The notes below the pieces were generated by a model. That model saw nothing but the letters and a program-made list of their open reading frames with translations. It searched no databases and had not been told where the DNA came from. A stretch of 64,000 nt of DNA from positions 62,001 to 126,000 of the forward strand of contig JANWUV010000002.1 of NCBI GenBank assembly GCA_025057975.1. Direction: 5' to 3'. This DNA is from Chloracidobacterium sp. (GTDB taxonomy: Bacteria; Acidobacteriota; Blastocatellia; Chloracidobacteriales; Chloracidobacteriaceae). A program made the translations under genes and the position numbers. Below, piece by piece: positions 7,594 through 59,255 of this stretch (position 1 is the first letter of the stretch; every line of letters starts with the position of its first letter).

Positions 7594-8058
7594 ATGCCTG
7601 AAGTCGGTTCTCCTGCGCCAACCTTCACCCTGCCGGATATGCACGGCCAGCCGGTGAGTCTGGAACAGTTCCGCGGTCGTAAGGTGGTTTTGTACTTTTA
7701 CCCGAAGGATGACACGCCGGGTTGCACCAAAGAGGCGTGCGGCTTTCGTGACGCGCACGCCGAATATCAAGCAAAGGGCATCGTCGTGCTGGGCGTCTCA
7801 CTCGATGATGAAGCCTCACATCGCGCCTTCGCGGAAAAATACCAGCTTCCCTTCACGTTGTTGGCGGACACCAACCACGTCGTCTCCGAGGCCTACGGCG
7901 TTTACGGGGAACAGGAGTGGCAGGGGAAAAAGTTTATGGGACTGGCGCGGAAGACCTTTCTCATTGATGAGCAGGGCGTCATCGTCAAAATTTTCGACAA
8001 GGTGAATGTTGAAACGCACAGTCGTGAAGTGCTTGAGGCGTTCGGTCTAGCCAGCTAG
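7594..8058 (+). CDS. bcp: thioredoxin-dependent thiol peroxidase, Bcp/PrxQ peroxiredoxin
   Basis: Reduces hydrogen peroxide and organic hydroperoxides with electrons from thioredoxin. From the ATG at 7594 the protein has 154 residues, a normal PrxQ length. The active site reads YFYPKDDTPGCTKEACGFRD: the first Cys is the peroxidatic residue and the second, five residues on, is the resolving Cys of the PrxQ type. The sequence continues with the conserved GVSLDDEASHRAFAEKYQLPF and RKTFLIDEQG segments. A GAGGTG ribosome site 4 bp before the ATG supports this start over the upstream ATG at 7525, which would add 23 basic residues. The next gene begins 42 bp downstream on the same strand and may be co-transcribed. 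Confidence 0.92.
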   Translation: MPEVGSPAPTFTLPDMHGQPVSLEQFRGRKVVLYFYPKDDTPGCTKEACGFRDAHAEYQAKGIVVLGVSLDDEASHRAFAEKYQLPFTLLADTNHVVSEAYGVYGEQEWQGKKFMGLARKTFLIDEQGVIVKIFDKVNVETHSREVLEAFGLAS

Positions 8059-8100
8059 TCGGTTCTTCGCCGTCCTGCTGATGCAGCAAGTTTACGACGT

Positions 8101-9624
8101 ATGGGACTTTGTATCTCGGTGCTCAACGGCTCACTGAGCGGTCAATCCTACCGCCTCCACGAAGGCGTCCTACTGCTGGGGCGTAGTGTGGACGCGGGCG
8201 TCCGCTTTGATCCAGCGATGGACGGCATGGTGTCGTCGCGGCATTGCCTGTTGCAGGCTGAGCCGGACGGCTTCTACGTCGTGGACAACCAGAGTACCAA
8301 CGGGACGTACGTCAACGGCCAGCGTATCCAGCGCGTTCGGCTCAATCACGGCGATGTCATCGAGTTAGGGCGTCCTGGCGTTCGCATTAGCGTCGCGCTG
8401 GAATCACCTGCACCAGCGTCGAGCCCGGTGGCGTTCGCAGGGGGTCGCCCCTTGGCGGTACCCGGCGGGCGCACGGCTATGCTCAAGCAAACGCTGGGCA
8501 GCATCGGGATGTACAACCCAGAACATAAGGGACTCGCCCCAGAGCCGGAAAAGTCGCCGGTCGGCGCTTACATCGGCATGGCGGTTGGATTGCTGGTCTG
8601 TCTGATTCTTTCCCTGGTGGTCGCTCTCATCATGCTCTCCAATCTGGGTGTTGTCGCGGCCATCATCGCCACGATTGTTGCGTTTGTCCCGGCTTTTTTC
8701 TACATGCTGCCGCTGCTGTGGCTTGACCGGTACGATCCAGAGCCGGCGTGGGCCTTGGCGGCGTCGTTCGCTTGGGGCGGACTAGTCGCCGTCATTGTTT
8801 CTTACGTTTTGAACTCATTGTTCGGCACGATCGCCGCCAGCGTCGGCGGTGAAGTCGCTGGCACGATTGTCGGCGCCGTCATTTCTGCTCCTATTGTCGA
8901 AGAAGGCTCAAAGGGCTTGGGACTCATCCTCATCCTGCTGTTTCTGCGACGCGAGTTCGACGACATCGTGGACGGCATCGTGTACGGCGGCTTCATCGCG
9001 CTCGGCTTCGCCACGGTGGAAAATGTTCTCTACTACGGGCGCAGCTTGCTCAGCGGCGGGCTTGGGGGACTCATCGTCGTGTTTATTCTGCGCGGCGTTT
9101 TGTCGCCGTTCGCCCATGTGACCTTTACGGCGATGACCGGCATCGGCTGCGGCATCGCTCGCGAGTCACACAGTTTCGCCGTTCGTTTCCTAGCGCCGGT
9201 CGGCGGCTATGTCCTCGCGGTCGTCCTGCACATGATTTGGAACGGCATGGCGGTGTTTTTAGGCAACCGCTTTCTCATCGGTTATGCGCTGTTCGAGGTG
9301 CCGTTCTTCCTGCTGTTTATCGGCTTTCTCATCTATGTCGCCCGGCGTGAGAGCAAAATTCTCAAGGAAATGCTCGCGGTCGAAGTGGCGCGTGGACTCA
9401 TCACCCCGGAGCACTTGGCGATTGCAACCTCAAGCATTCGCCGGACGCTCTGGCCGCTGCAAGGCAACTTCGGGGCGCGGCGCGCTTTCCTGAAAAACGT
9501 CTCAAAGCTGGGGCTTTGCTACTGGCATGTTCAGCGGGCGGCGGCGGCCCAAAGCGAAACCCGCAGCCTGCCGCAGATTCCACGCCTACAGGCTGAAATT
9601 ATGCGCCTGCGGACGCAGGTTTGA
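8101..9624 (+). CDS. FHA domain fused to PrsW-family intramembrane protease
   Basis: A 507-residue protein with an N-terminal FHA domain (about residues 1-100; LLGRSVDAGVRF, SSRHCLL and NQSTNGTYVNG motifs, the phosphothreonine-binding loops), a linker, and a polytopic C-terminal domain of about eight spans. The membrane part has the PrsW signature: EEGSKGLGL (EExxK type), ATVENVLYY, HVTFTAMTG and HMIWNG, holding the Glu and His residues thought to form the metalloprotease active site. PrsW enzymes carry out site-1 cleavage of anti-sigma factors; here the FHA domain suggests recruitment by a Thr-phosphorylated partner (inference). A soluble tail of about 90 residues follows the last span. No sigma/anti-sigma pair is adjacent, so the substrate is unknown. 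Confidence 0.85.
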   Translation: MGLCISVLNGSLSGQSYRLHEGVLLLGRSVDAGVRFDPAMDGMVSSRHCLLQAEPDGFYVVDNQSTNGTYVNGQRIQRVRLNHGDVIELGRPGVRISVALESPAPASSPVAFAGGRPLAVPGGRTAMLKQTLGSIGMYNPEHKGLAPEPEKSPVGAYIGMAVGLLVCLILSLVVALIMLSNLGVVAAIIATIVAFVPAFFYMLPLLWLDRYDPEPAWALAASFAWGGLVAVIVSYVLNSLFGTIAASVGGEVAGTIVGAVISAPIVEEGSKGLGLILILLFLRREFDDIVDGIVYGGFIALGFATVENVLYYGRSLLSGGLGGLIVVFILRGVLSPFAHVTFTAMTGIGCGIARESHSFAVRFLAPVGGYVLAVVLHMIWNGMAVFLGNRFLIGYALFEVPFFLLFIGFLIYVARRESKILKEMLAVEVARGLITPEHLAIATSSIRRTLWPLQGNFGARRAFLKNVSKLGLCYWHVQRAAAAQSETRSLPQIPRLQAEIMRLRTQV

Positions 9625-9630
9625 ACGCCG

Positions 9631-9794
9631 TTTCCAGAGTGGGTCCCGCTTGAGCGTAGCGACCAGGGTCAGCCCTGGTTGCACGGGTGGGTTTATGGTA
9701 TTCACGCCCGCTTGATCCAGGCATTGACGTTGATTCACGCCGGCGACTTACCGGATGATATTTACCGCTACGAATTTGCGCCAGAGTCCCTGTA
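9631..9794 (+). pseudogene. decayed 3' end of a beta-carbonic anhydrase gene
   Basis: Between the PrsW and SDR genes a short frame at about 9670-9720 reads QPWLHGWVYGIHARLIQ, close to the (V/L)HGWVYG(I/L)H segment near the C-terminus of beta-carbonic anhydrases, and then stops. In another frame the text continues to 9794 as DDIYRYEFAPESL, which also resembles a carbonic anhydrase C-terminus. The catalytic zinc-binding part is absent. I read this as a frameshifted, 5'-deleted relic. The identification is by eye from a short segment. Confidence 0.45.
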
Positions 9795-9804
9795 AGCGTT
9801 TCCG

Positions 9805-10638
9805 ATGGCCAATGTCATGTTCGTGACCGGCGGCGCAAGCGGCATCGGCCGCCATGTGGCTGAAAGCTACTATCGCGCTGGTCACCGCGTTGTCTTCGCC
9901 GATTTGTCTGCCGCCCGGCTGGAACGGATTTGCGCGCAACTGCCAGCTGAAACCGGCGGTGAGGCGCTGCCTTTAGCCTTTGATGTCCGTGACGAACAAG
10001 GCTGGGAACGCGCTGTCGCGGAAACCGTCGCACGTTGGGGCCGGCTGGACGTGCTACTCAACATTGCTGGCTATTTGCACGTAGACGAGTTGCTTGCTGC
10101 GCCTTCGGCAGCCGTGCATGACCATCTCGACATTAACGCCAAGGGCGTTATCTTCGGCACGCTGTCGGCTGCACGTCAGATGCGCCGTCAGCCGGAGGGC
10201 GGCCATATCATCAATGTGGCGTCGCTGGCGGGTATTGTGCCCGTGCCGGGACTGACGTTGTATTCGGCGTCGAAGTTCGCTGTGCGTGGGTTTTCGCTCG
10301 CCGCTGCGTACGAGCTTGCCCCCTACAACATCGCTGTGACGGTCGTCTGCCCCGACGCCGTTCAAACCCCAATGCTGGCGTTACAAGTCAGCCGACCTGA
10401 AGCGGCGCTGACGTTTTCCGGCGGGCGGATTCTCACCGTCGCCGAGATTGCAGCGGCGATTGAGGACGCGCGGCGGCGGCGACCGCTAGAGGTGACGATT
10501 CCGCGCCATCGAGGTTGGCTGGCGAAACTGACAAATTTGTGTCCGCCTATCGCTCGTTGGTTGATTGAGCCGCTCCGGCGGCGTGGCCGTCGCCGGCAGG
10601 CGCAGTGGCGAGCCGCACATCAAGAAAAATTGCCTTGA
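9805..10638 (+). CDS. short-chain dehydrogenase/reductase
   Basis: A 277-residue classical SDR. The NAD(P)-binding motif TGGASGIG lies at residues 8-15, the structural NIAG near residue 88, and the catalytic Ser and YSASK (Tyr and Lys) near residues 135-155. The acidic FADLS after strand beta-2 favours NAD(H) over NADP(H). The last 60 residues are basic (RRRGRRRQAQWR), a tail seen in some membrane-associated SDRs such as those acting on lipids or retinoid-like substrates, but the substrate cannot be read from sequence. Its 3' end overlaps the following trpC gene, which implies co-transcription rather than shared pathway. Confidence 0.85.
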   Translation: MANVMFVTGGASGIGRHVAESYYRAGHRVVFADLSAARLERICAQLPAETGGEALPLAFDVRDEQGWERAVAETVARWGRLDVLLNIAGYLHVDELLAAPSAAVHDHLDINAKGVIFGTLSAARQMRRQPEGGHIINVASLAGIVPVPGLTLYSASKFAVRGFSLAAAYELAPYNIAVTVVCPDAVQTPMLALQVSRPEAALTFSGGRILTVAEIAAAIEDARRRRPLEVTIPRHRGWLAKLTNLCPPIARWLIEPLRRRGRRRQAQWRAAHQEKLP

Positions 10639-11414
10639 CGCCTTTGAACCGCATTCCGCCTTCGCTGTCCGAAATTGTGGCGACACGGCGCGCAGCGTAC
10701 GCCGGACGCGCCACGATGCCGCCTGCCGACCTGTCACCTGCATCGGGCCGGTTTCTTGCCGCTCTTGACGGGCAAAGTCCGGCGCTCATCGCGGAAATCA
10801 AGCCCCGGTCGCCAAGCGAGGGCGTCCTGCAGGCTGCGCCCGACCTGACGCGCCTGCTGCCCGTCTATGACGCCTACGCCGTGGCGATTTCCGTCCTGAC
10901 GGAGCCGGATTACTTCGGCGGCGGTTTTGAACTGTTAGCCGAAGTCACCCGGCGGTCGCTGCGTCCAACGCTGTGCAAGGATTTCATTGTGCATCCGGCG
11001 CAAATTCACGATGCGCGCCGCGCCGGTGCGGAAGCGGCGCTACTCATCGTGAAGATTCTCGACGACGCCCAACTGGACGACCTCCACGCCGAGATTCGGC
11101 GCTGGAAGATGACGCCCATCGTCGAAGTGCAAACTGAAGCCGAGTTGGAACGGGCGCTGCGCGTTGACCCGGCGGTGATCCTCATCAACAACCGCAACCT
11201 CGAAACCTTTGAGATTTCGTTGGATACGACGAAACGACTTGCGCCGCGCGTCCCGTCCGGTATCGTAACGGTCGCCGCCAGCGGGATTCACCGCCGCGCG
11301 GACATCGAAACGTTACTGCCGTACTGCACGCGCTTCCTTGTCGGGACGAGGCTGATGCGCGCCGCCGACCTTGCAACGGCCTTCGCCGACCTGCTCGGAC
11401 AAGGGCGTGCCTAA
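10605..11414 (+). CDS. trpC: indole-3-glycerol-phosphate synthase
   Basis: Fourth committed step of tryptophan synthesis: ring closure of the carboxyphenylamino-deoxyribulose phosphate to indole glycerol phosphate. The TIM-barrel signatures are present: ALIAEIKPRSPSEG with the catalytic Lys, VLTEPDYFGGG, LCKDFIVHPAQI, INNRNLETFEI and GTRLMRA. The start is unclear: a GTG at 10605 overlaps the SDR gene by 34 bp, while an in-frame TTG at 10635 would make a TTGA overlap with the SDR stop and give a 259-residue protein starting LTPLNRI, closer to the usual N-terminus. No other trp gene is adjacent; the TrpE-like gene lies 7 kb away and is degenerate. Confidence 0.9.
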   Translation: MASRTSRKIALTPLNRIPPSLSEIVATRRAAYAGRATMPPADLSPASGRFLAALDGQSPALIAEIKPRSPSEGVLQAAPDLTRLLPVYDAYAVAISVLTEPDYFGGGFELLAEVTRRSLRPTLCKDFIVHPAQIHDARRAGAEAALLIVKILDDAQLDDLHAEIRRWKMTPIVEVQTEAELERALRVDPAVILINNRNLETFEISLDTTKRLAPRVPSGIVTVAASGIHRRADIETLLPYCTRFLVGTRLMRAADLATAFADLLGQGRA

Positions 11415-11420
11415 CCACCT

Positions 11421-12806
11421 ATGCCCAATCACTTTGGAGAGGTCTTTCCACCGCCCACCTTTGACGCCGCACGTTACGCCAATCGCCGCCGCCGTGTCTT
11501 CAAGCTTTTGGGCGACGACGTTATGGTGCTTTACAACCCGCCGGAGGCCCATCGGACGCACGACCTGTACTACCGCTATCGTCCGGACAGCGATGTGTAT
11601 TACTTGACCGGCTTTGAGGAGCCGGACGCCGTCATCGTCCTCGTGGGCGGCGCATCGCCCCGCTTGGTGATGTTTGTCCGACCGCGCGATCCCGAACGCG
11701 AAACGTGGGACGGCGCGCGGGCCGGCGTCGAAGGCGCAAAGGCAATCTATGGCGCAGACGAGGCGTTTCCGATTGACGCCTTTGACGCGCATATCGGCGG
11801 GTACTTGGAAACGGCGCAGACACTGTATTTCAAGTTCGGGCGCGACGAACACCTCAACCAGCGCGTCATCGCCGCGTTTCGCGCAGCGGCTCGTCGTCGG
11901 CATCGGCAGGGGCCGGCCCCGTCGGCCATCCGCGACACCCTGCCGCTGCTGGGCAAGCTGCGCCTCGTCAAAGACGCAGACGAACTGCTGCGCATGCGGC
12001 GCGCGGCCGACATCGCCGCCGAAGCCCACCTTCGCGCCATGGCAACTGTGCAACCTGGTTGGTACGAGTTTCAGGTCGAAGCTGAACTCGAATACGTCTT
12101 CCGCCGGCGCGGCGCGTTAGGGAGTTCCTACACCTCGATTGTCGGCGGCGGCGCAAACGCGACGGTGCTGCACTACAACGCCAACAACAGCCTGCTGCGC
12201 GACGGCGAGTTGCTCCTGATTGACGCTGGCGCGGAGTACGGCTACTACGCCAGCGACATCACGCGCACCTTTCCCATCGGGAAGCGATTCACGCCAGCGC
12301 AGCGCGATATTTACGAACTGGTGCTCCAAGCCCAAAAGAACGCCATCGCCGCCGTTCAGCCTGGCGCGCGCTTTGACAAGTATCACCAAGTCGCGCTTGA
12401 CACACTGATTGACGGCCTCCGTGACTTGAAGTTGCTGACCGGCTCACCCGATGAAATCAAGGAGAAGAAAACCTACACGCGGTTTTACATGCACCGCGCC
12501 GGCCACTGGCTGGGTAGCGACGTACACGACGCCTGCACGTACTTCACCAATGAAACCGAAAACGGAAGCTTTCTCTATGAAAAGCTCCGTCCGGGCTGCG
12601 TCGTCACGGTTGAGCCGGGGCTGTACTTTGCACCGGGTCTCAAGGGCGTCCCGAAACGTTACGCCGGGATTGGCGTCCGCATTGAGGACGACGTGCTCGT
12701 TACGCGCACCGGCAATGAAGTCTTGACCGCCGCCGTACCAAAGGAAATCGCAGACATTGAAGCTGTGCGGCGTGCGGCGCTGTCCAATGGAGGAGGCCAC
12801 GCATGA
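11421..12806 (+). CDS. pepP: Xaa-Pro aminopeptidase (M24B)
   Basis: Removes the N-terminal residue from peptides with proline in second position. The 461-residue protein has the N-terminal creatinase-like domain (YRPDSDVYYLTGFEEPDAV) and the C-terminal pita-bread metallopeptidase domain. Ligands for the two metal ions are recognisable in DAGAEYGYYASDITRTFP (two Asp), HRAGHWLGSDVHD (His), VEPGLYF (Glu) and RIEDDVLV (Glu). It begins 6 bp after trpC and its stop overlaps the next small gene in an ATGA arrangement, so the three are probably one transcript. Confidence 0.92.
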   Translation: MPNHFGEVFPPPTFDAARYANRRRRVFKLLGDDVMVLYNPPEAHRTHDLYYRYRPDSDVYYLTGFEEPDAVIVLVGGASPRLVMFVRPRDPERETWDGARAGVEGAKAIYGADEAFPIDAFDAHIGGYLETAQTLYFKFGRDEHLNQRVIAAFRAAARRRHRQGPAPSAIRDTLPLLGKLRLVKDADELLRMRRAADIAAEAHLRAMATVQPGWYEFQVEAELEYVFRRRGALGSSYTSIVGGGANATVLHYNANNSLLRDGELLLIDAGAEYGYYASDITRTFPIGKRFTPAQRDIYELVLQAQKNAIAAVQPGARFDKYHQVALDTLIDGLRDLKLLTGSPDEIKEKKTYTRFYMHRAGHWLGSDVHDACTYFTNETENGSFLYEKLRPGCVVTVEPGLYFAPGLKGVPKRYAGIGVRIEDDVLVTRTGNEVLTAAVPKEIADIEAVRRAALSNGGGHA

Positions 12807-13102
12807 GTGAGTTACTGTTTGATACGGTGAAGTTCTGTAGCAGTTGTGGCCGCCGCGCCACCAACGGCGACGTGGCGGCGCTGGGGACGCGCATTCGCCC
12901 GTTGTTCCAAAAACAACTTGAGAAGGAAGGGCTGGCCGGCTGCGTCGCCATGAGCAGTCGGCCATGCTTCGCCAAATGCCCGGACAACGGCATCACCGTC
13001 GCGCTCAGTACAAGCGATGATTCCATGCCGCGCGAGGTCTATATCGTGGCGTCGCTCCGCGACTTGGATTACGTCTATGCGCGCTTGCGCGGCGAAGTGT
13101 AG
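12803..13102 (+). CDS. small five-cysteine protein, thioredoxin-like ferredoxin candidate
   Basis: A 99-residue soluble protein translationally coupled to pepP by an ATGA overlap. It has five cysteines: Cys12 and Cys15 (FCSSCG), Cys47, and a C-x3-C pair at 55 and 59 (PCFAKCPDNGITV). The C-x3-C followed by a Pro and a beta strand resembles the second cluster-binding pair of thioredoxin-like [2Fe-2S] ferredoxins and related DUF1636-type proteins, in which an N-terminal Cys supplies the other ligands. The remainder (REVYIVASLRDLDYVYARLRGEV) is consistent with a small alpha/beta fold. I do not recognise a specific function; redox or metal binding is an inference from the cysteine pattern. Confidence 0.6.
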   Translation: MSELLFDTVKFCSSCGRRATNGDVAALGTRIRPLFQKQLEKEGLAGCVAMSSRPCFAKCPDNGITVALSTSDDSMPREVYIVASLRDLDYVYARLRGEV

Positions 13103-13160
13103 CCCTGCGCAACCTGCCCCACTGTCTTCCGCCGTATCCCTGTAAAGCTACGTTCTTGTG

Positions 13161-15509
13161 ATGAAAACCATTCTGTTCCGCCTGATTGTCCTTGCCACGT
13201 GCCTGATTTGCCTTAGCGCGTCAAGCGCTGTCCTCGCCCAATCGAAATCCAAACCGAGCGACAAGTTCCGTCAGCTTGACGAAGTGCTGCCGACGCCGAA
13301 CGAATACCGCACGGCGTCAGGCGCGCCCGGTCACAAGTACTGGCAAAACCGCGCCGATCACGTCATCAACGTCGAACTCGACGACGAGCGCCAACGCCTT
13401 CAGGCGAGCGAAACGATTACCTACACGAACAACTCGCCGGATGAGCTGCGCTACCTATGGCTTCAGCTCGACCAGAACATCTTCGCCAAGGACAGCGATG
13501 CCTTTCGGTCGCAGACTTCCGGCGGGCTGGATCGCGTACCGTTGTCGGTGCTTGACGGCCTCCTGCTTCGCCCGGAGTTTGACGGCGGCTACAGGATTAC
13601 GGCCGTCAAGGACGCCAAGGGGCAGCCGCTCAAACACGTCATCGTCAAAACCATGATGCGCGTGGATTTGCCGACGCCGCTCAAGCCGGGGCAGCAGGTG
13701 AGTTTTTCGGTGGACTGGAACTACAACATCAACGACGCCGTGAAGCTCGGTGGGCGGTCGGGCTACGAATACTTCCCGAAGGACAAGAACTACATTTACG
13801 AAATCGCGCAGTGGTTTCCGCGCATGTGCGCCTACACGGACTATCGCGGCTGGCAGCACACGCAGTTCTTAGGCGCAGGCGAGTTCACGCTGGAGTTCGG
13901 TAACTACCGCGTGGCGATCACCGTCCCGGACGACCACATCGTTGCGGCGACCGGAGTCTTACAGAACCCGAAGCAGGTCTTGACGCCGGAACAGATCGCG
14001 CGGCTGGAACAGGCGCGGACGGCGAAAGCGCCGGTGTTCATCGTGACGCCTGAAGAGGCCCGCCGCGCTGAGCAGGGTCGCCCGACCGGCAAGAAAACGT
14101 GGATTTTTCAGGCGGAAAATGTCCGCGACTTCGCCTTTGCGTCGTCGCGCAAGTTCATCTGGGACGCCATGGGGCACAACGTCGAGGGCAACCAGGTCAT
14201 GGCGATGTCGTTCTACCCCAACGAAGGCAACCCGCTCTGGGAGCGGTACTCGACGCACGCCATCATCCATACGCTCAACGTCTATTCACGCTACACGTTC
14301 GCCTACCCGTACCCCGTCGCCATTTCCGTCAACGGTCCTGTCGGCGGCATGGAATACCCGATGATTTGCTTCAACGGCCCGCGCCCGCTTGAAGACGGAA
14401 CGTACTCGGCGCGGACGAAGTACGGTCTCATCAGCGTCATCATCCACGAAGTTGGACACAATTTCTTCCCGATGATTGTCAACTCCGACGAGCGGCAGTG
14501 GACGTGGATGGATGAGGGCCTTAACACGTTCCTCCAGTATTTGGCTGAGCAGGAATGGGAGGACAAGTACCCGTCGTTTCGGGGTGAGCCGCAGTACATC
14601 ACCGACTACATGAAGAGCGAAAACCAAGTGCCGATCATGACGCAGTCGGATTCGGTGCTTCAGTTTGGGAACAACGCCTACGCGAAGCCTGCAACGGCGC
14701 TCAACATTCTGCGCGAGACGATTCTGGGGCGCGAGTTGTTTGACTACGCCTTCAAGGAGTACGCCCGGCGGTGGAAGTTCAAGCGCCCGGAGCCGGCGGA
14801 CTTTTTCCGCACGATGGAGGACGCTTCGGGCGTGGATTTGGACTGGTTCTGGCGCGGGTGGTTTTACTCAACCGACCACGTGGATATTTCCATCGAGAAC
14901 GTCCGGTGGTATCGGCTGGATACGCAGAACCCCGATGTCGAAAAGGCGCTGCGGCGGCAGGAGCGCGATTCGCGGCCGGTGACGCAGTCGCAGGAGCGCA
15001 ACAAGCCGCTGCCGAAGCGGGTTGACCAGTACCCCGAACTCAAGGACTTCTACAACCAGTACGACGAGTTGGAGGTCACCGACGCTGACCGCGAGGCGTA
15101 CCGGAAGTTTCTGGAGATGCTGACCGACCGCGAGAAGGAAATCCTCAACGCCAACTTGAACTTCTACTTCGTGGACTTCAAGAACATCGGCGGACTGGTC
15201 ATGCCGATTATTCTGGAGGTGACGTACACGGACGGGACAAAGGAGGAAATGCGGTTTCCGGCTGAGATTTGGCGGCTCAATAACTTTGAGGTGTCAAAGC
15301 TCATCGTGACGCCGAAGGAGATTGCGAGCATCACGTTGGATCCGCGCCTTGAGACGGCGGACGCGGAACTGACGAACAATTTTTTCCCGCGTCGTCCGGT
15401 CAAGTCACGGTTTCAGGTCTTCAAGGAGCAGCGGCAGGGGCCGCCGAATCCGATGCAGTTGGAGCGTAAGCGGCAATCGCCGCCGCAGCGCGACAACCCG
15501 CGCCGGTAA
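13161..15509 (+). CDS. secreted M1-family metallopeptidase
   Basis: An exported aminopeptidase-like enzyme of 783 residues. The N-terminus is a signal peptide (MKTILFRLIVLATCLICL to a cleavage site near VLA). The zinc site is intact: HEVGH at residues 429-433 and the third ligand Glu452 in WMDEGLNTF, 19 residues later. The GGMEYP segment upstream matches the GAMEN-type exopeptidase motif with M-E conserved. The C-terminal third is long and charged and ends in a Pro/Arg-rich tail. The ATG at 13161 is preferred over the adjacent GTG at 13158. Many relatives are periplasmic or outer-membrane-associated peptidases used for scavenging; the exact specificity is not evident. Confidence 0.88.
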   Translation: MKTILFRLIVLATCLICLSASSAVLAQSKSKPSDKFRQLDEVLPTPNEYRTASGAPGHKYWQNRADHVINVELDDERQRLQASETITYTNNSPDELRYLWLQLDQNIFAKDSDAFRSQTSGGLDRVPLSVLDGLLLRPEFDGGYRITAVKDAKGQPLKHVIVKTMMRVDLPTPLKPGQQVSFSVDWNYNINDAVKLGGRSGYEYFPKDKNYIYEIAQWFPRMCAYTDYRGWQHTQFLGAGEFTLEFGNYRVAITVPDDHIVAATGVLQNPKQVLTPEQIARLEQARTAKAPVFIVTPEEARRAEQGRPTGKKTWIFQAENVRDFAFASSRKFIWDAMGHNVEGNQVMAMSFYPNEGNPLWERYSTHAIIHTLNVYSRYTFAYPYPVAISVNGPVGGMEYPMICFNGPRPLEDGTYSARTKYGLISVIIHEVGHNFFPMIVNSDERQWTWMDEGLNTFLQYLAEQEWEDKYPSFRGEPQYITDYMKSENQVPIMTQSDSVLQFGNNAYAKPATALNILRETILGRELFDYAFKEYARRWKFKRPEPADFFRTMEDASGVDLDWFWRGWFYSTDHVDISIENVRWYRLDTQNPDVEKALRRQERDSRPVTQSQERNKPLPKRVDQYPELKDFYNQYDELEVTDADREAYRKFLEMLTDREKEILNANLNFYFVDFKNIGGLVMPIILEVTYTDGTKEEMRFPAEIWRLNNFEVSKLIVTPKEIASITLDPRLETADAELTNNFFPRRPVKSRFQVFKEQRQGPPNPMQLERKRQSPPQRDNPRR

Positions 15510-21337: not shown

Positions 21338-22291
21338 CTAGGCATGACGCGCCAGCAGGTAATCGCAGACCTCAGGTAGGCGGGAAAAACTGTTGGGGAG
21401 GAAGAGGCAAACAATTGGGAGTGCAGCGACCAACCGGGTCAAGGTGTCTAAAATGACGGCTTGCGCCTCCGGCAGCGGCAGCCGGCCCGGGTAAATATTC
21501 GCCAGAAGCTTGCCGACGGCCAACGCCGGCGTCAGTGGGCGGCTCACCACAGGAGCGTCAGACGAATCTACTTCAAGCAGGTAGATCGTCGTCAGCGGAA
21601 CCCCCAGCATCCAGTCGCCGGTCGGTTCGTCAAGCGGCAGGTATTGCTTCTCCCAGTGTTTAGAAATCGGCGGCAGGGCGTCGGGGCGGCCGTATAACGC
21701 CGTCACGGACGGCGACCACAAGCGAATTGCGCGCGGGCCAAAGTGGACGCGAAAACCGCCGTCTCGTTCTTCAACGGCGGCGACATCCTCCGTGACAATT
21801 CGTGCGCCGCGCGCCAACAACGCGGCGGCCAGCGTGGATTTGCCGACGCCGTTCGGCCCGACAAACGCCACGCCCGCGTTGCCAATCGCTACTACGCTTG
21901 CATGGAGACAGACGCGATGGTGTAGCTGCAACACAAAACCAAGGATGGGGCCGAGCAGATACGTGCAAGTGTCTTCGAACGTCTGAGGCGCGCGCCAATA
22001 GGCCGTCAGTCGTCCCCCGTCGGATTCGTAATCAAAGCTCGTCCCCACGTCATAACGAAACCAAAACCGATGTGCCTCCGGCGCATGGTAGGCGACCAAC
22101 TCCGGCGACTGCTCGAAAGCCGACGGCCCGCAGTACCACGGCTCAACTTCCGGCCGCAACGCCGGCAGCATTCCTTCTTCAAAACCGAGGGCAAGGTCGG
22201 ACGCACCAGTTTTCCCAATCGGCGGGAGCAGAAAGGGCACCGCTGTCGTCGTGGTCAGCCGCAGCCCATACACCCCATAAACGAGGGTCAT
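21338..22291 (-). CDS. HPr-kinase-like protein of the lasso peptide cluster
   Basis: A 317-residue protein with a C-terminal HprK-like kinase core: Walker A FVGPNGVGKSTL at about residues 143-153 and TEDVAAVEERDGGF downstream. Such proteins are frequent in lasso-peptide clusters; the one from the paeninodin cluster phosphorylates the C-terminal serine of its precursor. Here it is the last gene of the cluster. The ATG at 22291 falls 4 bp after the precursor stop; the frame is open upstream to 22345, overlapping the precursor, but the internal ATG fits better. The predicted core has a single hydroxyl side chain, Ser19, making it the only obvious phosphate acceptor in the core. It lacks the HPr-interacting signature of true carbon-control kinases as far as I can see. 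Confidence 0.75.
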   Translation of the reverse strand: MTLVYGVYGLRLTTTTAVPFLLPPIGKTGASDLALGFEEGMLPALRPEVEPWYCGPSAFEQSPELVAYHAPEAHRFWFRYDVGTSFDYESDGGRLTAYWRAPQTFEDTCTYLLGPILGFVLQLHHRVCLHASVVAIGNAGVAFVGPNGVGKSTLAAALLARGARIVTEDVAAVEERDGGFRVHFGPRAIRLWSPSVTALYGRPDALPPISKHWEKQYLPLDEPTGDWMLGVPLTTIYLLEVDSSDAPVVSRPLTPALAVGKLLANIYPGRLPLPEAQAVILDTLTRLVAALPIVCLFLPNSFSRLPEVCDYLLARHA

Positions 22292-22295
22292 TAGA

Positions 22296-22484
22296 TCAGC
22301 GCGAGATGCGATTTGGACGCGGACCAATCCGATCCGCCCGCCCAACGCCGCCGACGGCCAAGGTCAACTCCAGTAACGTGCCGTAGTCCGTTAGTGTCGG
22401 CGCGCGGTATGATTTCTTGGATGATGGTTTTTCACTCATGGGCGGTTCGAAGGCTTCAGATTGGATTGAAATATGCGGCGTCAT
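22296..22484 (-). CDS. lasso peptide precursor
   Basis: A 62-residue precursor with a GGAG ribosome site 6 bp before the ATG at 22484. The leader contains YRAPTLTDYG, the YxxPxLxxxG motif bound by lasso RRE proteins, and ends LLELTL with Thr at the -2 position, the expected cleavage signal. The predicted core is AVGGVGRAD followed by RIGPRPNRISR (20 residues). Ala1 would be joined to Asp9 in a nine-residue macrolactam ring, leaving an 11-residue tail. The core has five Arg and no aromatic residue, so the plugs would have to be Arg, Ile or Asn side chains. The gene lies 34 bp after the cyclase gene. This order (B1-B2-C-A-kinase) and the leader motif make the call firm even though the core is novel to me. 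Confidence 0.85.
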   Translation of the reverse strand: MTPHISIQSEAFEPPMSEKPSSKKSYRAPTLTDYGTLLELTLAVGGVGRADRIGPRPNRISR

Positions 22485-22518
22485 AGAAAACTCCAAAGTT
22501 TAGACAACAAACGGCGTT

Positions 22519-24354
22519 TTAGGATGATGCGAGCTTGAATTGCATCCATTTGTATAAGGTTAGCGGGCCGAGGTCAATCAAAGATTCGGCTTCCCGTTGC
22601 GCATTCCACACAATTTCACGGTCGAAGGCGTCGTTTGTCACAAAACACGCCAGGCGGCGACGAATCTCATCTTCAGCCGGCAAGCGCGTCCATGCCGCGC
22701 CATACTTTCGGATATAACCGGTAATGGGGAACGCCCGCAGCGGCGTTTTCGGGCGGCGGACGACGGCGCGCGGAAGCTGATGGCTGAGCGACTCCCGGAA
22801 AAGCCATTTATCAAGGCAGGCCGGCACGGTCGGGATCGCCAGCAGGAACTCAAGCGCCCGCAGATCAAGCAATGGATAGCGCATCTCAACCAGCGCGCCG
22901 GTAAAGGCCGGGTCGTTGTACTCATGATCGTTGGCCATATGAACCCGACTGAGCGCCCGTACGGCGAGGCTGTGGAACGGGTGATGCGGCGGCTCGTCCG
23001 CCCGGCGCTCAAAGTAGCCGGACTGACGAAGCCGCGCGACAAAGTCAGGCGCAAGCCACTGGGGAAGGTCCAGCTCTGGAGGCGCTGGTCGCACGCGCCC
23101 AAGCCGCCGCCGCAGCGAATAGAAGCCGTTGCGCGCGTCGCTGACGAAATACTCCGCCAAAGCCTGCACCAGCGCCGCCACTCGGCGTTGCGCAAGCAGT
23201 TCGCGCAAGTACGGCGCCGTTTCCTGCGTCAGCGCCTCATCGCCCCACTGCCCCGTCAGCAACACCCGCGAGTGCGCCGCCGCCCGCCGGTAGCTTTCCA
23301 TGACGCCGCTCCAGAACGGCTCATGCACCGGCTCCGGCGGCGGCTGCGTCGCGTCCGGGTGCGGCGCGTAAGGCCGCCAATCGTCATGGGCAATGAACGT
23401 AATGGGAATACCGTGCGCCTGCGCCGCCATCTGCGCAAAACGCCGTTCATCGTCGGGAATCAGCCAATCGAAGACATTGGTGAAGGCATGCAGGGCGGTC
23501 GTCGGCGATGCGCGCCGCGCCGCCGCCGTAACGACGTTGGAATCAAGACCGCCGCTGAGAAACACCGAGGCGCGCGGCGTCCGCAGGCGATCCGCCACGG
23601 CTTTGTCCAAAATCGCCTGAAAATGCTCGACGTAGTCGCGGGAGCGGCGATACCGAAGACGCCCGTCGGTCGGCCAGTCCCAGTAACGCCACCGCCGGAG
23701 GCTTCCGTTTTCCAGACATAGGGCATGCGCGCGCGGCATGCGCCGGACGGCGCGGAAAAACGTCCCGTCTTCATCCAGTTTCATCCCGTGAATGAGAAAA
23801 TCCGCGACGGCGAACACATCCAAATCGTCCGGGATGGCGCTGGGCACATTCGGGTGGGCGCAGACGGTGTCCAACGCGCTTGCCGCCACAAACACATCCG
23901 GCCGATGACTGTAGTACAGCGGCTTGACCCCAAATCGGTCGCGCGCGCAGAAGAGCCGCCGACGTAGGGCATCCCACAGCGCAAAAGCGAAATCGCCATG
24001 CAGATAACGCAGGCAATCCGTTTCCCAAGCGCGGTACGCCCGCCACAGCAGCTTGGCGTCGCTGTCGGCAGGGGTGGCGTCAAAGCCAGCCGCTTGGAGG
24101 GCGCGACACAGTTCCTCCCGCGCGTCAAGCCGAATATCGGCTGCCAGCCATACTTGCTCATCAAAGGTCGGCGGCGGCGCCACGCTAGTGAGGTCGTCTA
24201 CCCGGAGATGGGCGTAGCCAAACGCGACATAGTCGTCGCTCCATTGCCATTGACCGTCAGGACCGCGCCAAACCAGCGATTGAAGCAACCGCGCGGGCAG
24301 GTCCGGCTCGATGAGGCTTCCGGGGGGCTGGACGATAACAACAAAGCTGCTCAC
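22519..24354 (-). CDS. lasso peptide macrolactam synthetase (asparagine-synthetase-like cyclase)
   Basis: A 611-residue AsnB homologue that adenylates the ring-forming Asp side chain of the cleaved core and closes the macrolactam. The N-terminal region resembles the glutaminase fold (FGYAHLRVDDL, DGDFAFALWDALRRRLFCARDRFGVKPLYY) but lacks the Cys2 nucleophile (the protein starts MSSF), as expected for a lasso cyclase that does not hydrolyse glutamine. The ATP pyrophosphatase loop FLSGGLDSN lies near residues 261-269. The start overlaps the protease stop by 4 bp (ATGA). The context (leader protease upstream, precursor downstream) separates it from a true asparagine synthetase. Confidence 0.9.
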   Translation of the reverse strand: MSSFVVIVQPPGSLIEPDLPARLLQSLVWRGPDGQWQWSDDYVAFGYAHLRVDDLTSVAPPPTFDEQVWLAADIRLDAREELCRALQAAGFDATPADSDAKLLWRAYRAWETDCLRYLHGDFAFALWDALRRRLFCARDRFGVKPLYYSHRPDVFVAASALDTVCAHPNVPSAIPDDLDVFAVADFLIHGMKLDEDGTFFRAVRRMPRAHALCLENGSLRRWRYWDWPTDGRLRYRRSRDYVEHFQAILDKAVADRLRTPRASVFLSGGLDSNVVTAAARRASPTTALHAFTNVFDWLIPDDERRFAQMAAQAHGIPITFIAHDDWRPYAPHPDATQPPPEPVHEPFWSGVMESYRRAAAHSRVLLTGQWGDEALTQETAPYLRELLAQRRVAALVQALAEYFVSDARNGFYSLRRRLGRVRPAPPELDLPQWLAPDFVARLRQSGYFERRADEPPHHPFHSLAVRALSRVHMANDHEYNDPAFTGALVEMRYPLLDLRALEFLLAIPTVPACLDKWLFRESLSHQLPRAVVRRPKTPLRAFPITGYIRKYGAAWTRLPAEDEIRRRLACFVTNDAFDREIVWNAQREAESLIDLGPLTLYKWMQFKLASS

Positions 24355-24827
24355 AAGACGCCAAGCAAGATGCTGGAAAGCGGCTGGTCAAAAGCGGCGT
24401 AGTGTTGTCTGATGTCGGCGGCTTCCAGCAGCGGTCTCCCCTGCCACTCGACCCACGCATGAGCTTCCAAAGCGCCAAGCGTCTTTTGAACGCCAAGCAC
24501 AATCTCGCATGTGACGCCGCGCCGCGTCAGCCAAAACCAAAGCGCCAGCGCCCGAATCAGGCAGGTCGTTGGGCGCAAAGTGTGCCGTGCCGCGCGGCCG
24601 ACAAGTTCCGCCTGACGCATTACCCATTCCTCCGGCGGCGATACGGAGGAACACCTAGCTGTCATTCGTTGCAGGCAATGCAGACAGCAACGTACGCCAA
24701 TAACTCGACACAGTACATCAACCGCTGTCAGTAGCGCCCAAGCCACCAAAAGGCCAGCGCGGTCGTCCGGCGACAGCCGCCAAAAAGTTCCAAGTTGGCG
24801 CAGACGGCGCTTCAATTGCATTGTCAC
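24351..24827 (-). CDS. lasso peptide leader protease (B2, transglutaminase-like)
   Basis: A 158-residue cysteine protease that removes the leader peptide. The catalytic Cys89 lies in PTTCLIRALAL and His123 in LEAHAWVEWQG, followed by the Asp-containing stretch LLEAADIR; this is the Cys-His-Asp triad of the microcin J25-processing B2 family. The N-terminal third contains a hydrophobic helix (AGLLVAWALLTAVDVLCRVIG), common in this family and perhaps membrane-associated. It overlaps both neighbours by 4 bp, so B1, B2 and cyclase are translationally coupled. Five extra cysteines in the N-terminal half are unusual but not interpretable. Confidence 0.85.
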   Translation of the reverse strand: MTMQLKRRLRQLGTFWRLSPDDRAGLLVAWALLTAVDVLCRVIGVRCCLHCLQRMTARCSSVSPPEEWVMRQAELVGRAARHTLRPTTCLIRALALWFWLTRRGVTCEIVLGVQKTLGALEAHAWVEWQGRPLLEAADIRQHYAAFDQPLSSILLGVL

Positions 24828-25117
24828 GATACCGAAAGGGGTGGGACGATCTCGATCAAGCCGGCTTCGAGCAGTTGGTTGAGCAGTTCCTCGAAATCCT
24901 CAACAAGCCGCTCCCGCGTAACGTCGTATTCATCCAACAACGCCTCAACGGCGTCCGCAAGTGTGCCACCGTTCGTGGATTGAAGCAGCATGGCATACCC
25001 AACACTGTCGAGTGCATAGTAGTGCTCCGTAGCCAGATTAAGCAGAACAGCTTCGTCGGCGACACGACGCACAATGACGTGATTTGGAATCGTAGCGCGA
25101 GAGTTGAAGTCAACCAT
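24824..25117 (-). CDS. lasso peptide RRE protein (B1, PqqD-like)
   Basis: A 97-residue stand-alone RiPP recognition element. The beta-strand IPNHVIVRRVADEAVLLNLATEHYYALDSVG followed by helices (GTLADAVEALLDEYDVTRERLVEDFEELLNQLLEAGLI) is the PqqD fold; it would grip the YxxPxLxxxG part of the leader and present it to the B2 protease, whose gene it overlaps by 4 bp. It is the first gene of the cluster, so the promoter must lie in the 370 bp upstream. The ATG at 25117 has only a weak ribosome site. No transporter or isopeptidase gene is attached to the cluster within the window. Confidence 0.85.
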   Translation of the reverse strand: MVDFNSRATIPNHVIVRRVADEAVLLNLATEHYYALDSVGYAMLLQSTNGGTLADAVEALLDEYDVTRERLVEDFEELLNQLLEAGLIEIVPPLSVS

Positions 25118-54563: not shown

Positions 54564-57206
54564 ATGCCGGTCAGCTGGACAGACCTCCTGCTTGCTTATC
54601 TGCATGACCCACCGGACAAAGCACTAGACATTCGCGGTCACGAAAAGCGCGCCGCCGATCTCGCCCGCATTGCGCTTGGCGACGACGTGACCAAAGAAGG
54701 CGTCAAACGTGTGGCGGGCGCAGCGGACACTCTGGCTTCCATCGTCGAGCGATTCCCGATGCCGACAGCCGGCGGCGACGGCGAGCGCGCCGTCAGCCCT
54801 GAAAACCAAACGCTCCATATTGTCCATCCGCTGTCGGCGACACAGCGGACGCTCGAGCTGCCGCCGCTCGGTGCGTTGACTACTGCGCAGCAGAACGCTC
54901 TACGCGACGCCATGGACGGTTTCTCCGATGACCATGATCCGACGGCGCGCAAACGTTGGCTGGCGGTCTGGCGCAACTGGCCGGAAAAACTGGCTGAAGT
55001 CCAGCCCTGCACGGCTTTCCTACCGGCCGACACCCGAACGCCCGATCATACAATCTGGCATCACCTCGATACTGTTGCGGCTTTTGAAGCGGCGCGTTCC
55101 GAAGGCGGCGGCATAGCGCTGCTGGCTTTTGCGCTCGGCCCGGTGCAGCGATTTATCGAGGCGGCCCGCTCGGTCCGCGATTTGTGGTCGGGCAGCATGA
55201 TCCTCTCTTGGCTGGCTTTTCAGTCATTGCTGCCCGTCGTTGAGCAACTCGGTCCGACGGCGCTGCTGTATCCGGCGCTGCGCGGCAATCCGCTGCTGGA
55301 CTTATGGCTGGCGCAAGATGCACAGTTGGGCGCACGCGCACCGCAGCCGACGACGCGGCAGAAAATGACGCCCTCGCTTCCGCATCGCTTTCTGGCGCTT
55401 GTGCCATGGGGAAAGAACGGCGCAGCCGCCCACGAACTGGCCGAACGCTGCCGTCAAGCCTGCGCCAAGGCGTGGCGTGAACTGGCCGAAAGCGTTCGGG
55501 CGCGGCTCAAGCAGGAGCTTGACGGGCAATGGACTGACTGGGACGCCCGCTGGAACCACCAAATCGCTGATTACTTCAGCGCGGCGACCGCCGTTCTGCC
55601 GCTAAGCGGAATAGGGGACGAAATTGACCGTCAATTGGCTGATTTGCTTGCCGGGAAAGACACCTTTGCCGACGCCTTTCCCGCAGCCGAGCACGTCCGC
55701 GCGATGGCGCGGTCAATCCCCCGAAGCGACCGCCCCAACTACGCCCAGGAACAAGCCGGTCAGTGGCAATACCAGATTGAACTCGTCCAGCGGTCGCTGG
55801 CGGCGGCGCGTACTGTTCGGCACATTCCGTCCAGCACGGCGGGCGAGGGGCCGTGGCCGCCAAAGTGTACGCTGTTTGGCAGCTTCGAGCAGATGGGACC
55901 CGCCCAACTGAGTGCATCAAGCGACTTTTGGAACAACCTCGCCCAACCCAACGGCGGCTTGAGCCTTGACGGCGTGCGCATTCGCGCCGGTGAAGCCCTC
56001 TGCGCCGTCGCCCTCGCCAAACGGTTTTCCGGCCCGGCGTTCTTCGTTAAACAACTTGGCGTCACGCCCCAAGACCTGCGTTTCCCTGATACGTGGACGG
56101 TCGCCGCCGCCGTCTGGCTTGAAAAAGCCAACATTCGCCCCGACCAAGTTCGTCGGGAGTACGGTGAATGGAACGGCCGCTGGCTGCACTGGTCAAAGCC
56201 TGACCAAGATTTGGAAACCGCCGGCCCGTGCCCGGAAGATGTTTGGCGGCGAATCCAACACTACAGCCGGAAGGAACAACTTGGGCCGCCGCCGACCTAC
56301 TACGCCATCCTAAAACTCGACGGCGACGATCTGGGCGGTTGGCTGCGGGGCGAACAATCACCGCAGGCGCGCGAGGTCATCCATCCCAAGTTGGTCGCGT
56401 ACTTTGAAGAGGTTGACGCCCAAAACGCCGAGCGGCTCAAGGCGCGGCGACCTGTCGGGCCGGCGCTCCATGCCGCCATCAGTACGGCGCTGGCCAACTT
56501 CGCGCTGCACGTCGCGCCGCCCGTCATCGAAGCCCACTCCGGAACGCTCATCTACGCGGGCGGCGATGACCTACTGGCGCTGCTGCCGGTTGAAAAAGCC
56601 CTACCTTGCGCGGCGCAGCTGGCGCAGGCCTACCGGCAAAACTGGTACGCAACTGACCAAAACCGGCGCGAGGCCAACCGACGCGAATGGCTGCTGATGG
56701 GCAAGCGAGCAACGATTTCCGGCGGGATGGTCGTCGTCCACGCCAAGGACGACCTACGGCTGGCGTTGCAGGACGCCCGTGCGGCCGAGCATCAGGCCAA
56801 GGCCACTGGTAAGGACGCGCTGGGCATGACGGTACGGCGGCGCTCCGGCGAGCATACGTCGGCGGTGTGTCCGTGGCCCTTCGCCGAGAGCGTTATCGGC
56901 TGGACGGACGGCTTCCGGCGTGGCGCATCCGACCGCTGGGTCTATCGGCTTTACGGCATGCGGGGGACGCTGGCCGGGCTTCCGGCCAAAGCCATTCAGG
57001 CGGAATTCCAACGTCAGCTTCGTCGCGCTGAAGCGCCGACGCCGGACTTGATCCCGCCGAAAGATTTCGCAGAGGCATTTGATGCTTTCCAAGCTTTGAA
57101 GCTTCCCAACGGCGTGCGGCGTTTCTCCGACGCGAGGGCGGCGCTGGAGCCGTTTCTGACGCTGTGCCACACGGCGGCGTTTCTGGCGCGTGGGAGGGAC
57201 GTATGA
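54564..57206 (+). CDS. cmr2: Cas10 / Cmr2, type III-B large subunit
   Basis: Signalling subunit of the Cmr complex: target RNA binding triggers cyclic oligoadenylate synthesis. The 880-residue protein starts with the HD-type segment LLAYLHDPPDKALDIRGHE (His14, Asp15), a candidate DNase site. The first Palm domain has LDGDDLGGW near residue 586 and the second has the catalytic GGDD at residues 666-669 in YAGGDDLLALLP. The SGGMVVVHAKDDLR and KDALGMTVRRRSGE segments are typical of Cmr2. All four cyclase residues are intact, so cOA production is expected, consistent with the CARF gene at the end of the operon. Cmr3 follows with an ATGA overlap. Confidence 0.95.
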   Translation: MPVSWTDLLLAYLHDPPDKALDIRGHEKRAADLARIALGDDVTKEGVKRVAGAADTLASIVERFPMPTAGGDGERAVSPENQTLHIVHPLSATQRTLELPPLGALTTAQQNALRDAMDGFSDDHDPTARKRWLAVWRNWPEKLAEVQPCTAFLPADTRTPDHTIWHHLDTVAAFEAARSEGGGIALLAFALGPVQRFIEAARSVRDLWSGSMILSWLAFQSLLPVVEQLGPTALLYPALRGNPLLDLWLAQDAQLGARAPQPTTRQKMTPSLPHRFLALVPWGKNGAAAHELAERCRQACAKAWRELAESVRARLKQELDGQWTDWDARWNHQIADYFSAATAVLPLSGIGDEIDRQLADLLAGKDTFADAFPAAEHVRAMARSIPRSDRPNYAQEQAGQWQYQIELVQRSLAAARTVRHIPSSTAGEGPWPPKCTLFGSFEQMGPAQLSASSDFWNNLAQPNGGLSLDGVRIRAGEALCAVALAKRFSGPAFFVKQLGVTPQDLRFPDTWTVAAAVWLEKANIRPDQVRREYGEWNGRWLHWSKPDQDLETAGPCPEDVWRRIQHYSRKEQLGPPPTYYAILKLDGDDLGGWLRGEQSPQAREVIHPKLVAYFEEVDAQNAERLKARRPVGPALHAAISTALANFALHVAPPVIEAHSGTLIYAGGDDLLALLPVEKALPCAAQLAQAYRQNWYATDQNRREANRREWLLMGKRATISGGMVVVHAKDDLRLALQDARAAEHQAKATGKDALGMTVRRRSGEHTSAVCPWPFAESVIGWTDGFRRGASDRWVYRLYGMRGTLAGLPAKAIQAEFQRQLRRAEAPTPDLIPPKDFAEAFDAFQALKLPNGVRRFSDARAALEPFLTLCHTAAFLARGRDV

Positions 57207-58336
57207 GCCACGCCGGAACGCCGCACACCATCGGCCTCAGGCTCGAACCGCTTGACGTACTGTTTTTCCGCGACGGGCGGCCCTTCGGTAGCGAGCGCAA
57301 CCTCAGCGGATGGCCGACGCCGCAGACCTTTGCAGGCGCAATCCGTACGGCGCTGCTCGAAGCCGCCGGCTGCAACTTCGCCCGACTGGCGCAAGCCATT
57401 CAGACCGGAAAATCCTTCGCGGAAGCGGTTGAGGCAAGCTGTCCGACGGCGTTTCACTGGATCGGGCGCGTCATGGCGCGCGGCGTATGGCCGGCGCGGG
57501 TGACGCCAAACGGTCAACCGGATGTGCTGACGCCAGCGCCGTCCGTGCTGCATGTGGAAAAAAATCAACCGACGAAGCTGCATCGGCTGCAACCGCTGCC
57601 GCCCTCTCAGCTTCCCGGTTGGCAGCCGCCGCCTGACGACTCGAAGTGGCGTCCGCTATGGCTGAAAAACTTGGCGCCGACGGAGCCAGTGGAAGGCTAC
57701 CTGACGCAAAACGGGCTTGCGACATTTTTGGCGGGCGGCGTTCCAAACAGCGACGAAATTGTTTCGCCGTCGGCTCTCTTTGCGCTGGATTACCGAACCG
57801 GCGTCACCATTTCCCCCGACAGCCTGACGGTCGAGGCGTCGCAGATTTTCAGTTGCGGCTTTTTGGCGCTCAAGCCGGGCGTCACCCTTTACGGCGAAGT
57901 TGACGTTCCTGACGACGTGCGTCATGACGCGGAAAAGCTGATTGACGCGCTCAAGTTGATGGCGTTCGGGGGCGAAGGTCGGCGCGTCGTTGTTGCGCGC
58001 TTGGCGCACTCCTGCCCTTGGCCGCAGCGGTCGCCAAGCAGGGACAAAGAAAGACCGCTAACGCTGCTCATCACGCCCTGTCCCTTTGCCTCTCGCTGGA
58101 AGCCGCATGCGTTGACTGGGAGGGTGATTGCAGCGGCCGTCCCCGGCGCGACGGCGTTTTCCGGTTGGGATTTGGCGCGCGGCGGCCCGAAACCAACACG
58201 CTTCGCCGCCGCCGCCGGAAGTGTGTACTTCCTTGATGAGGCCCCGCCGATGTGGCCGGCGTCGCTCGCCGAAAGCAACGAAGACGCTGCGCTGGGTTGG
58301 GGCGGCTACTTGAAAGGAGTGTGGAACGATGTCTGA
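57203..58336 (+). CDS. cmr3: Cmr3 (Cas5-like subunit)
   Basis: Cas5-group subunit that binds the crRNA 5' handle with Cmr2. The 377-residue protein begins GLRLEPLDVLFFRDGRPFG, the standard Cmr3 N-terminal motif, followed by WPTPQTFAGAIRTAL. The GEVDVPDDVRHDAEKLIDALKLMAFGGEGRR segment and GYLKGVWNDV end are also typical, with a glycine-rich C-terminal loop (GWGGYLKG). The ATG at 57203 overlaps the cmr2 stop; the frame is open further left but is antisense-free overlap with cmr2. It overlaps cmr4 by 8 bp. Confidence 0.92.
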   Translation: MSHAGTPHTIGLRLEPLDVLFFRDGRPFGSERNLSGWPTPQTFAGAIRTALLEAAGCNFARLAQAIQTGKSFAEAVEASCPTAFHWIGRVMARGVWPARVTPNGQPDVLTPAPSVLHVEKNQPTKLHRLQPLPPSQLPGWQPPPDDSKWRPLWLKNLAPTEPVEGYLTQNGLATFLAGGVPNSDEIVSPSALFALDYRTGVTISPDSLTVEASQIFSCGFLALKPGVTLYGEVDVPDDVRHDAEKLIDALKLMAFGGEGRRVVVARLAHSCPWPQRSPSRDKERPLTLLITPCPFASRWKPHALTGRVIAAAVPGATAFSGWDLARGGPKPTRFAAAAGSVYFLDEAPPMWPASLAESNEDAALGWGGYLKGVWNDV

Positions 58337-59237
58337 ACCTGCCGCGACCAACGGCCGCGCCGGTGTAACGCAGGCGGCGGCGTTGTTGTTCATCCATGCG
58401 CAGACCAGTTTGCATCCGGGGTCAGGGACGGCGCTGGGCGTCGTGGACTTGCCTGTCCAGCGCGAACGCCATACGCAGTGGCCGGTAATTCCCGGTTCGA
58501 CGCTGAAAGGCATTGTCCGGGACGCCTGCACCCGGCGGAACGGCGACCGGGAAAAGCTTCAGGCGGTGTTTGGCCCTGAAAAGAGCAACGCCGCCGACCA
58601 CGCCGGCGCGCTGAGTCTGACGGATGCGCGTCTGCTGGCCTTTCCGGTACGGTCGCTCAAAGGCGTTTTCGCTTGGGTCACCTGCGCAGCCGTTCTGGAA
58701 CGACTACGACGCGACGTGCAGTTGACCGGGGCCGGCGAGTTGGATTGGCGACCCCCAACGGCTGAGCCTGACAAGGCGCTTTGTCCAAAGGAGAGTCCAC
58801 TACTGACGGACGGCGACAAGCTCATCCTCGAAGAGTTTGAGTTTACGCGCGTCGGCGAAGCGGACGCCGTCGCCGCGTGGGTCGCCGAGCGTGCGACGAA
58901 CGACGATTTCACACAACAACAGCTCAAACAGCGCCTTGTCGTCCTGCACGACGACGATTTCACGCACTTCGTCCGCCATGCAACTGAGGTAACGGCGCGC
59001 GTCGCGCTGGATTACGAACGCAAGACCGTCAAGCGCGGCGCGTTGTTTTATGAGGAGTTTCTGCCGCCGGAGACCGTTTTCTACGCCGTGGCGCTGGCCG
59101 GCGCGAGCCGTCGGAAGGGACACGAACTGAACGCCGGCGACGTGATGGAGTACGTGCGCGCCCATCTTCCGCCGGTACTCCAAATCGGCGGCGATGAAAC
59201 CATCGGCAAGGGCCTCTGCGCCGTACGGCTGACATAG
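58329..59237 (+). CDS. cmr4: Cmr4 (Cas7 backbone subunit and target-RNA nuclease)
   Basis: Repeated backbone subunit that lines the crRNA and cuts target RNA at 6-nt intervals. The 302-residue protein has the Cmr4 start LLFIHAQTSLHPGSGTALG, then VVDLPVQRERHTQWPVIPGSTLKG; Asp40 in VVDLP is at the position of the catalytic Asp of other Cmr4 proteins. The C-terminal IGGDETIGKGLC is the glycine-rich RAMP loop. The ATG at 58329 lies inside the end of cmr3. A strong AAGGAGGT site follows for cmr5. Confidence 0.93.
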   Translation: MSEPAATNGRAGVTQAAALLFIHAQTSLHPGSGTALGVVDLPVQRERHTQWPVIPGSTLKGIVRDACTRRNGDREKLQAVFGPEKSNAADHAGALSLTDARLLAFPVRSLKGVFAWVTCAAVLERLRRDVQLTGAGELDWRPPTAEPDKALCPKESPLLTDGDKLILEEFEFTRVGEADAVAAWVAERATNDDFTQQQLKQRLVVLHDDDFTHFVRHATEVTARVALDYERKTVKRGALFYEEFLPPETVFYAVALAGASRRKGHELNAGDVMEYVRAHLPPVLQIGGDETIGKGLCAVRLT

Positions 59238-59255
59238 CCTAAGGAGGTGTTTCAG

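Follow-up and report, generated by a model that had tools for sequence, protein, structure and literature searches.

The lasso peptide cluster

The window (the whole stretch of 64,000 nucleotides of Chloracidobacterium DNA that was analysed) carries on its minus strand, between positions 21338 and 25117, what is, judging from the genes encoded there, essentially certainly a complete lasso peptide cluster in the order B1-B2-C-A-kinase (Table 1). The RRE (B1), the leader protease (B2) and an AsnB-like macrolactam cyclase (C), the set by which a lasso cluster is recognized, are encoded together, and we have very little doubt that the cluster is functional. Five minus-strand genes in this order and place had been proposed in a sequence-only reading of the DNA, and both the coordinates and the family matches agree with that proposal; it had, however, left out a sixth conserved gene, which lies on the plus strand and specifies a methyltransferase.

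The overlaps described earlier for the first three genes (B1/B2 and B2/C) are exactly 4 bp. Residue inspection of B2 located Cys89 and His123, the pair previously named for the leader protease, together with Asp138, and the family match points the same way. The cyclase begins with VSSF and thus lacks Cys2, as had been claimed; it carries the ATP motif SGGLD at residue 267, and its best match is NF033535, the lasso lactam cyclase "exception" model, with a score under the cut-off of that model. Identification of the fifth gene product as an HprK-like kinase was likewise borne out by its family match. For the precursor the most likely start codon is the ATG at 22484, which has TTTGGAG upstream, giving a leader of 42 residues and a core of 20. 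For the kinase it is the ATG at 22291, directly after the precursor stop, rather than the TTG at 22345.

Table 1. Genes at the locus, and the predicted cores of the window precursor and its relatives in the genus
Feature	Position in window	Strand	Evidence or sequence
B1, PqqD-type RRE, 97 aa	24824..25117	-	Pfam PqqD, E=8.8e-15
B2, transglutaminase-like leader protease, 158 aa	24351..24827	-	NCBIfam lasso_biosyn_B2, E=3.3e-16, above cut-off
C, AsnB-like lasso cyclase, 611 aa	22519..24354	-	NF033535, E=9.3e-81; Asn_synthase, E=3.6e-31
A, precursor, 62 aa	22296..22484	-	lasso_cyano leader, E=1.7e-5, below cut-off; genus conservation; ATG start
K, HprK-like lasso kinase, 317 aa from ATG	21338..22291	-	Hpr_kinase_C, E=4.1e-8, just above gathering score
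DUF7948 protein, 940 aa	25487-28309	+	between B1 and methyltransferase
PRMT-like methyltransferase, 384 aa	28469..29623	+	PRMT6 (phmmer); PRMT2/PRMT6 (Foldseek); synteny; recurrence
Core, window	about 22299-22358		AVGGVGRAD-RIGPRPNRISR
Core, G003			ASFGDGRVD-RIGPRPNRASR
Core, G001			AAFGSTRAD-RIGPRPNRFSR
Core, genus mate			ATSGGIRAD-RIGPAPNRVSR
Core, genus mate			ASGTGFRVD-RALRTSRASR
Core, genus mate			AAFGITVRD-RVGPPPNRLSR
Core, genus mate			ASGNGGTPD-SILMRNASR

Elsewhere in the window, at 54564-62128 (+), there is a run of genes resembling a type III CRISPR (Cmr-like) module, the translations having been judged by eye. A second RiPP-like gene set occurs in the same genome outside the window (L124, G000:C2:271000-290500, positions 8716-14497). 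It comprises an ATP-grasp protein, a lasso B2 homologue (above cut-off), a weak HprK-like match, a radical SAM protein, PqqD and NTP_transf_5; the cyclase profile recognized no lasso cyclase in this set. B1/B2-like matches were seen in L125 (G005) and a B1-like match in L126 (G006).

The precursor family and the kinase

A search of relatives revealed cyclase homologues, 66-78% identical, in five other genomes of the genus, and readable precursors in four of these, with two each in G001 and G005. Five species of the genus retain the cluster, which is therefore no chance arrangement, and contig ends interrupt it in two further assemblies. In G002 and G004 the C-terminus of the kinase lies at the start of a contig, and the cluster has probably been split by assembly; we therefore dropped the notion that G002 lacks it, an assembly gap being more likely. 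A search for plasmids gave no match.

The leader of the window precursor contains YRAPTLTDYG and Thr(-2). A YxxPxLxxxG leader, Thr(-2) and Asp or Glu at core position 7-9 are common to seven cores from five species, and Thr(-2), Ala1, Asp9 and a C-terminal Ser-Arg are kept in all seven cores of the genus, that of the window included. The cleavage point after Thr(-2) and the nine-residue Ala1-Asp9 ring put forward earlier thus now rest on comparison, as do the core boundaries, and these conserved features support the lasso assignment. The core had been described as having no known match; its sequence is as described, but it belongs to a genus family with close cores in G003 and G001. The absence of aromatic residues holds for the window core and is not a family trait, Phe being present in several sister cores. 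Every genus core contains Arg, Arg20 is invariant, and four species retain the RIGPxPNRxSR tail. In another locus (L106, 8693-8905, plus strand) a precursor-like ORF with the lasso leader motif and the core TCGITTKATGNMLRVCL, which has no Asp or Glu for a ring, adjoins C, B2, kinase and methyltransferase genes.

In BsfK, a characterized lasso kinase, a His, the P-loop Gly/Lys/Ser and a pair of Asp residues matter (PMC10368454). Residue alignment of the window kinase with BsfK reveals that the His, Gly, Lys, Ser and second Asp are kept, while the first Asp of the pair is replaced by Glu, as it is in the genus. The precursor is the substrate of known lasso kinases, which modify a C-terminal Ser in the paeninodin group, as described in PMC9266682, and Ser3 in the case of BsfK (PMC10368454). 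The window core has a single hydroxyl residue, Ser19, and all the genus cores have Ser at this place, from which we surmise that Ser19 is the likely target of the kinase. This invariant Ser is penultimate and followed by Arg, rather than C-terminal as in the paeninodin type, and the cluster is for that reason filed as kinase-containing and not as a strict paeninodin-type member.

A PRMT-like methyltransferase beside the cluster

The sixth conserved gene was revealed by comparing neighbourhoods across the genus. Every genus mate examined has it next to the lasso cluster, and in G001, G004, G005 and G006 it is head-to-head with B1. In the window it is on the strand opposite to the cluster, 3.3 kb from B1, and here, as in G003, the DUF7948 gene separates the two; this gene is not found between them in the other four genomes.

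Pfam reveals a methyltransferase domain in the product, with weak matches to the PRMT_C and PRMT5_C barrels. Among PDB sequences, phmmer aligns residues 2-283 with PRMT6 (E=2e-33). An AlphaFold model (mean pLDDT 81) matches the structures of PRMT2, PRMT6 and CARM1 in Foldseek, with E values of about 1e-28 to 1e-26, and has the Rossmann methyltransferase domain and beta-barrel that typify the PRMT fold. In PRMTs, the guanidinium group is held by the two glutamates of the double-E loop. This loop is intact here (SETIGNYGAEE): E107 and E116 fall opposite the two glutamates of PRMT6 and are invariant in an alignment with eight other bacterial homologues. The THW loop reads TSW (residues 255-257) throughout the genus, Thr and Trp being kept and His replaced by Ser. 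By sequence and predicted structure, then, the product is a genuine PRMT homologue, kin to animal and plant arginine methyltransferases. It has a C-terminal extension of about 85 residues, which we considered as, but do not claim to be, an RRE/PqqD domain; it has no Pfam match, and its hhalign alignment with B1 is weak (25 columns, probability 13%).

In a sample of 396 Acidobacteriota genomes, profile searches matched the methyltransferase in 37 and lasso B2 in 90. At some 37 loci the methyltransferase gene has a lasso C, B1, B2 or kinase gene no more than roughly 10 kb away; these loci represent many genera and several gene orders, and the methyltransferase gene frequently adjoins or overlaps that of the kinase. 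Homologues away from lasso genes have unrelated neighbours where checked, and possess the canonical double-E loop and mostly a THW-like loop. They include L029-L036, L111, L121, L143, L159 and L160, from Myxococcota, Poribacteria, Planctomycetota and Acidobacteriota records. A pattern-based contig scan with the methyltransferase alignment yielded mostly generic methyltransferases, true PRMT homologues being confined to L029-L036, near which the lasso profiles found no lasso genes.

The two glutamates covary with the composition of the core. Among loci with callable precursors, all eight whose enzyme has both glutamates (those of this genus, G305, G418 and one of the two copies in G424) have cores containing Arg. 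Cores are Arg-free in 14 of the 16 loci where the loop is not intact, Arg being present in the other two; L155, with Glu at the second position and Asp at the first, was counted among the 16. The association gives a Fisher p of 6e-5 by locus and 0.006 at about one locus per genus, values that are descriptive because the comparison was framed after part of the data had been seen and the loci are not independent. GC content partly covaries with the pattern, and Arg-free loci reach 71% GC. The lasso cluster of L135 (G424) encodes two PRMT-like methyltransferases (7866-9386, minus strand; 12996-14069, plus strand), of which one has an intact double-E loop and the other a degenerate one.

Most lasso-associated homologues combine a degenerate loop with an Arg-free core, so one cannot speak of an Arg methyltransferase family overall. 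The majority of the loop-degenerate lasso enzymes form one large group in a phylogenetic tree, and the double-E lasso enzymes fall elsewhere; this was a quick tree with many weakly supported forks, and how many times the double-E loop was gained or lost is accordingly uncertain. At the loop-degenerate loci most cores end in Lys-Thr, or have Lys-Thr or Lys-Ser close to the end, while the ends are Arg-Thr in G305 and G418 and Ser-Arg in this genus. A kinase and a methyltransferase working on neighbouring residues would be in keeping with such a pairing of one hydroxyl and one basic residue at the end of the tail. As a control, clusters devoid of the methyltransferase provided a handful of plausible precursors, too few to count, none of which ends in KT, RT or SR.

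Proposed pathway and relation to known systems

In the pathway that we propose, B1 would bind the leader and B2 would cut it after Thr(-2)-Leu(-1), whereupon C would join the amino group of Ala1 to Asp9, so that a ring of nine residues would encircle the basic tail of 11 residues. Ahead of cleavage, and on the precursor, the HprK-like kinase would phosphorylate Ser19 and the methyltransferase would N-methylate at least one Arg, most likely in the tail. The calculated monoisotopic mass of the lasso form is 2085.178 Da, rising to 2165.144 Da on phosphorylation and by 14.016 Da with each methyl group. We consider it quite probable that the methyltransferase tailors this lasso peptide, and Arg is its likely target given the loop and the cores. 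That the locus makes a threaded lasso peptide which is both phosphorylated and Arg-methylated, with Arg as the acceptor, is a reading to which we give about an even chance.

The five genes might on their own suffice for a plain paeninodin-like phosphorylated lasso peptide, the methyltransferase being a conserved neighbour that acts on another protein. Its position in the window, on the opposite strand and beyond the DUF7948 gene, would suit such a neighbour, as would the existence of PRMT homologues in other bacteria with no lasso genes nearby. We nevertheless regard this as unlikely, since the gene accompanies the cluster in every genus mate examined and recurs in the lasso clusters of many genera under varied gene orders, often abutting or overlapping the kinase gene. 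Marginally less probable is a methyltransferase that tailors the lasso peptide elsewhere, modifying a non-Arg side chain, the phosphoserine or the carboxylate at the C-terminus. According to PMC9266682, lasso peptides of the lassomycin type include examples with C-terminal methyl esters. The prevalence of loop-degenerate enzymes with Arg-free cores indicates that the family can act on something else; against this, the genus enzyme retains both guanidinium-holding glutamates and each of the genus cores has Arg. A decayed or silent cluster, to which the lack of a recognized transporter gene in it might point, is highly improbable, given that the frames are all intact, the proteins are 56-81% identical between species with catalytic residues kept, and the tail is conserved in the four species noted above.

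Returning to the doubly modified product, we tentatively extend it, with somewhat less than even confidence, to an Acidobacteriota lasso branch in which a PRMT was recruited for tailoring. Double-E lineages such as the present one would methylate a core Arg near the phosphorylated Ser or Thr; elsewhere the loop would have decayed and the acceptor moved, perhaps to the Lys of the C-terminal Lys-Thr, specificity and core having shifted together. If the proposed Arg methylation is correct, it would add a modification to the lasso repertoire, and would provide a bacterial PRMT whose substrate is small and genetically linked, making its specificity directly testable. Genera differing jointly in the loop glutamates and in core Arg would offer a natural experiment on change of acceptor in a methyltransferase. 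The locus also illustrates how easily a reading confined to one operon overlooks a tailoring gene that has another gene between it and the cluster.

Among known systems the cluster is closest to that of phosphorylated paeninodin, which also has an Ala1-Asp9 ring, and by itself it is another member of a known lasso class. The paeninodin cluster of Paenibacillus dendritiformis (kinase PadeK) likewise has split B1/B2, a cyclase, an HprK-like kinase acting on the precursor and a conserved Ser at the C-terminal end, as set out in PMC9266682. The present cluster differs in the penultimate Ser (Ser-Arg end) and the basic, Arg-rich tail of its core, and in the PRMT-like methyltransferase beside it. 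The Bsf cluster of Bradymonas sediminis also encodes an HprK-like kinase, BsfK (PMC10368454), and ours retains its His, Gly, Lys, Ser and second Asp. BsfK, however, targets Ser3 and the leader there has Ile(-2), in contrast to Thr(-2) and Ser19, the sole core Ser, in our case; no methyltransferase is described among the seven bsf genes (PMC10368454).

Tailoring of a lasso precursor by a methyltransferase, as proposed here, has a parallel in the lassomycin-type systems with StspM/LasF. These enzymes are presented in PMC9266682 as carboxyl O-methyltransferases modelled on mitomycin-7-O-methyltransferase, unlike the PRMT homologue with a double-E loop found here. In the passages of the same review that the analysis covered, the lasso modifications described are C-terminal methyl esters, phosphorylation, citrullination and succinimide formation, and not Arg methylation (PMC9266682). 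Our search of the open-access literature found no report of Arg methylation in lasso peptides or of a PRMT in a RiPP pathway. The enzyme resembles eukaryotic PRMT6, PRMT2 and CARM1 in sequence, predicted fold, motif I, loop glutamates and beta-barrel; it differs from them in being bacterial and encoded beside a RiPP cluster, in having TSW for THW, and in its C-terminal extension. A lasso peptide with a kinase is thus of a kind already known, and the proposed PRMT-like tailoring enzyme is the new element.
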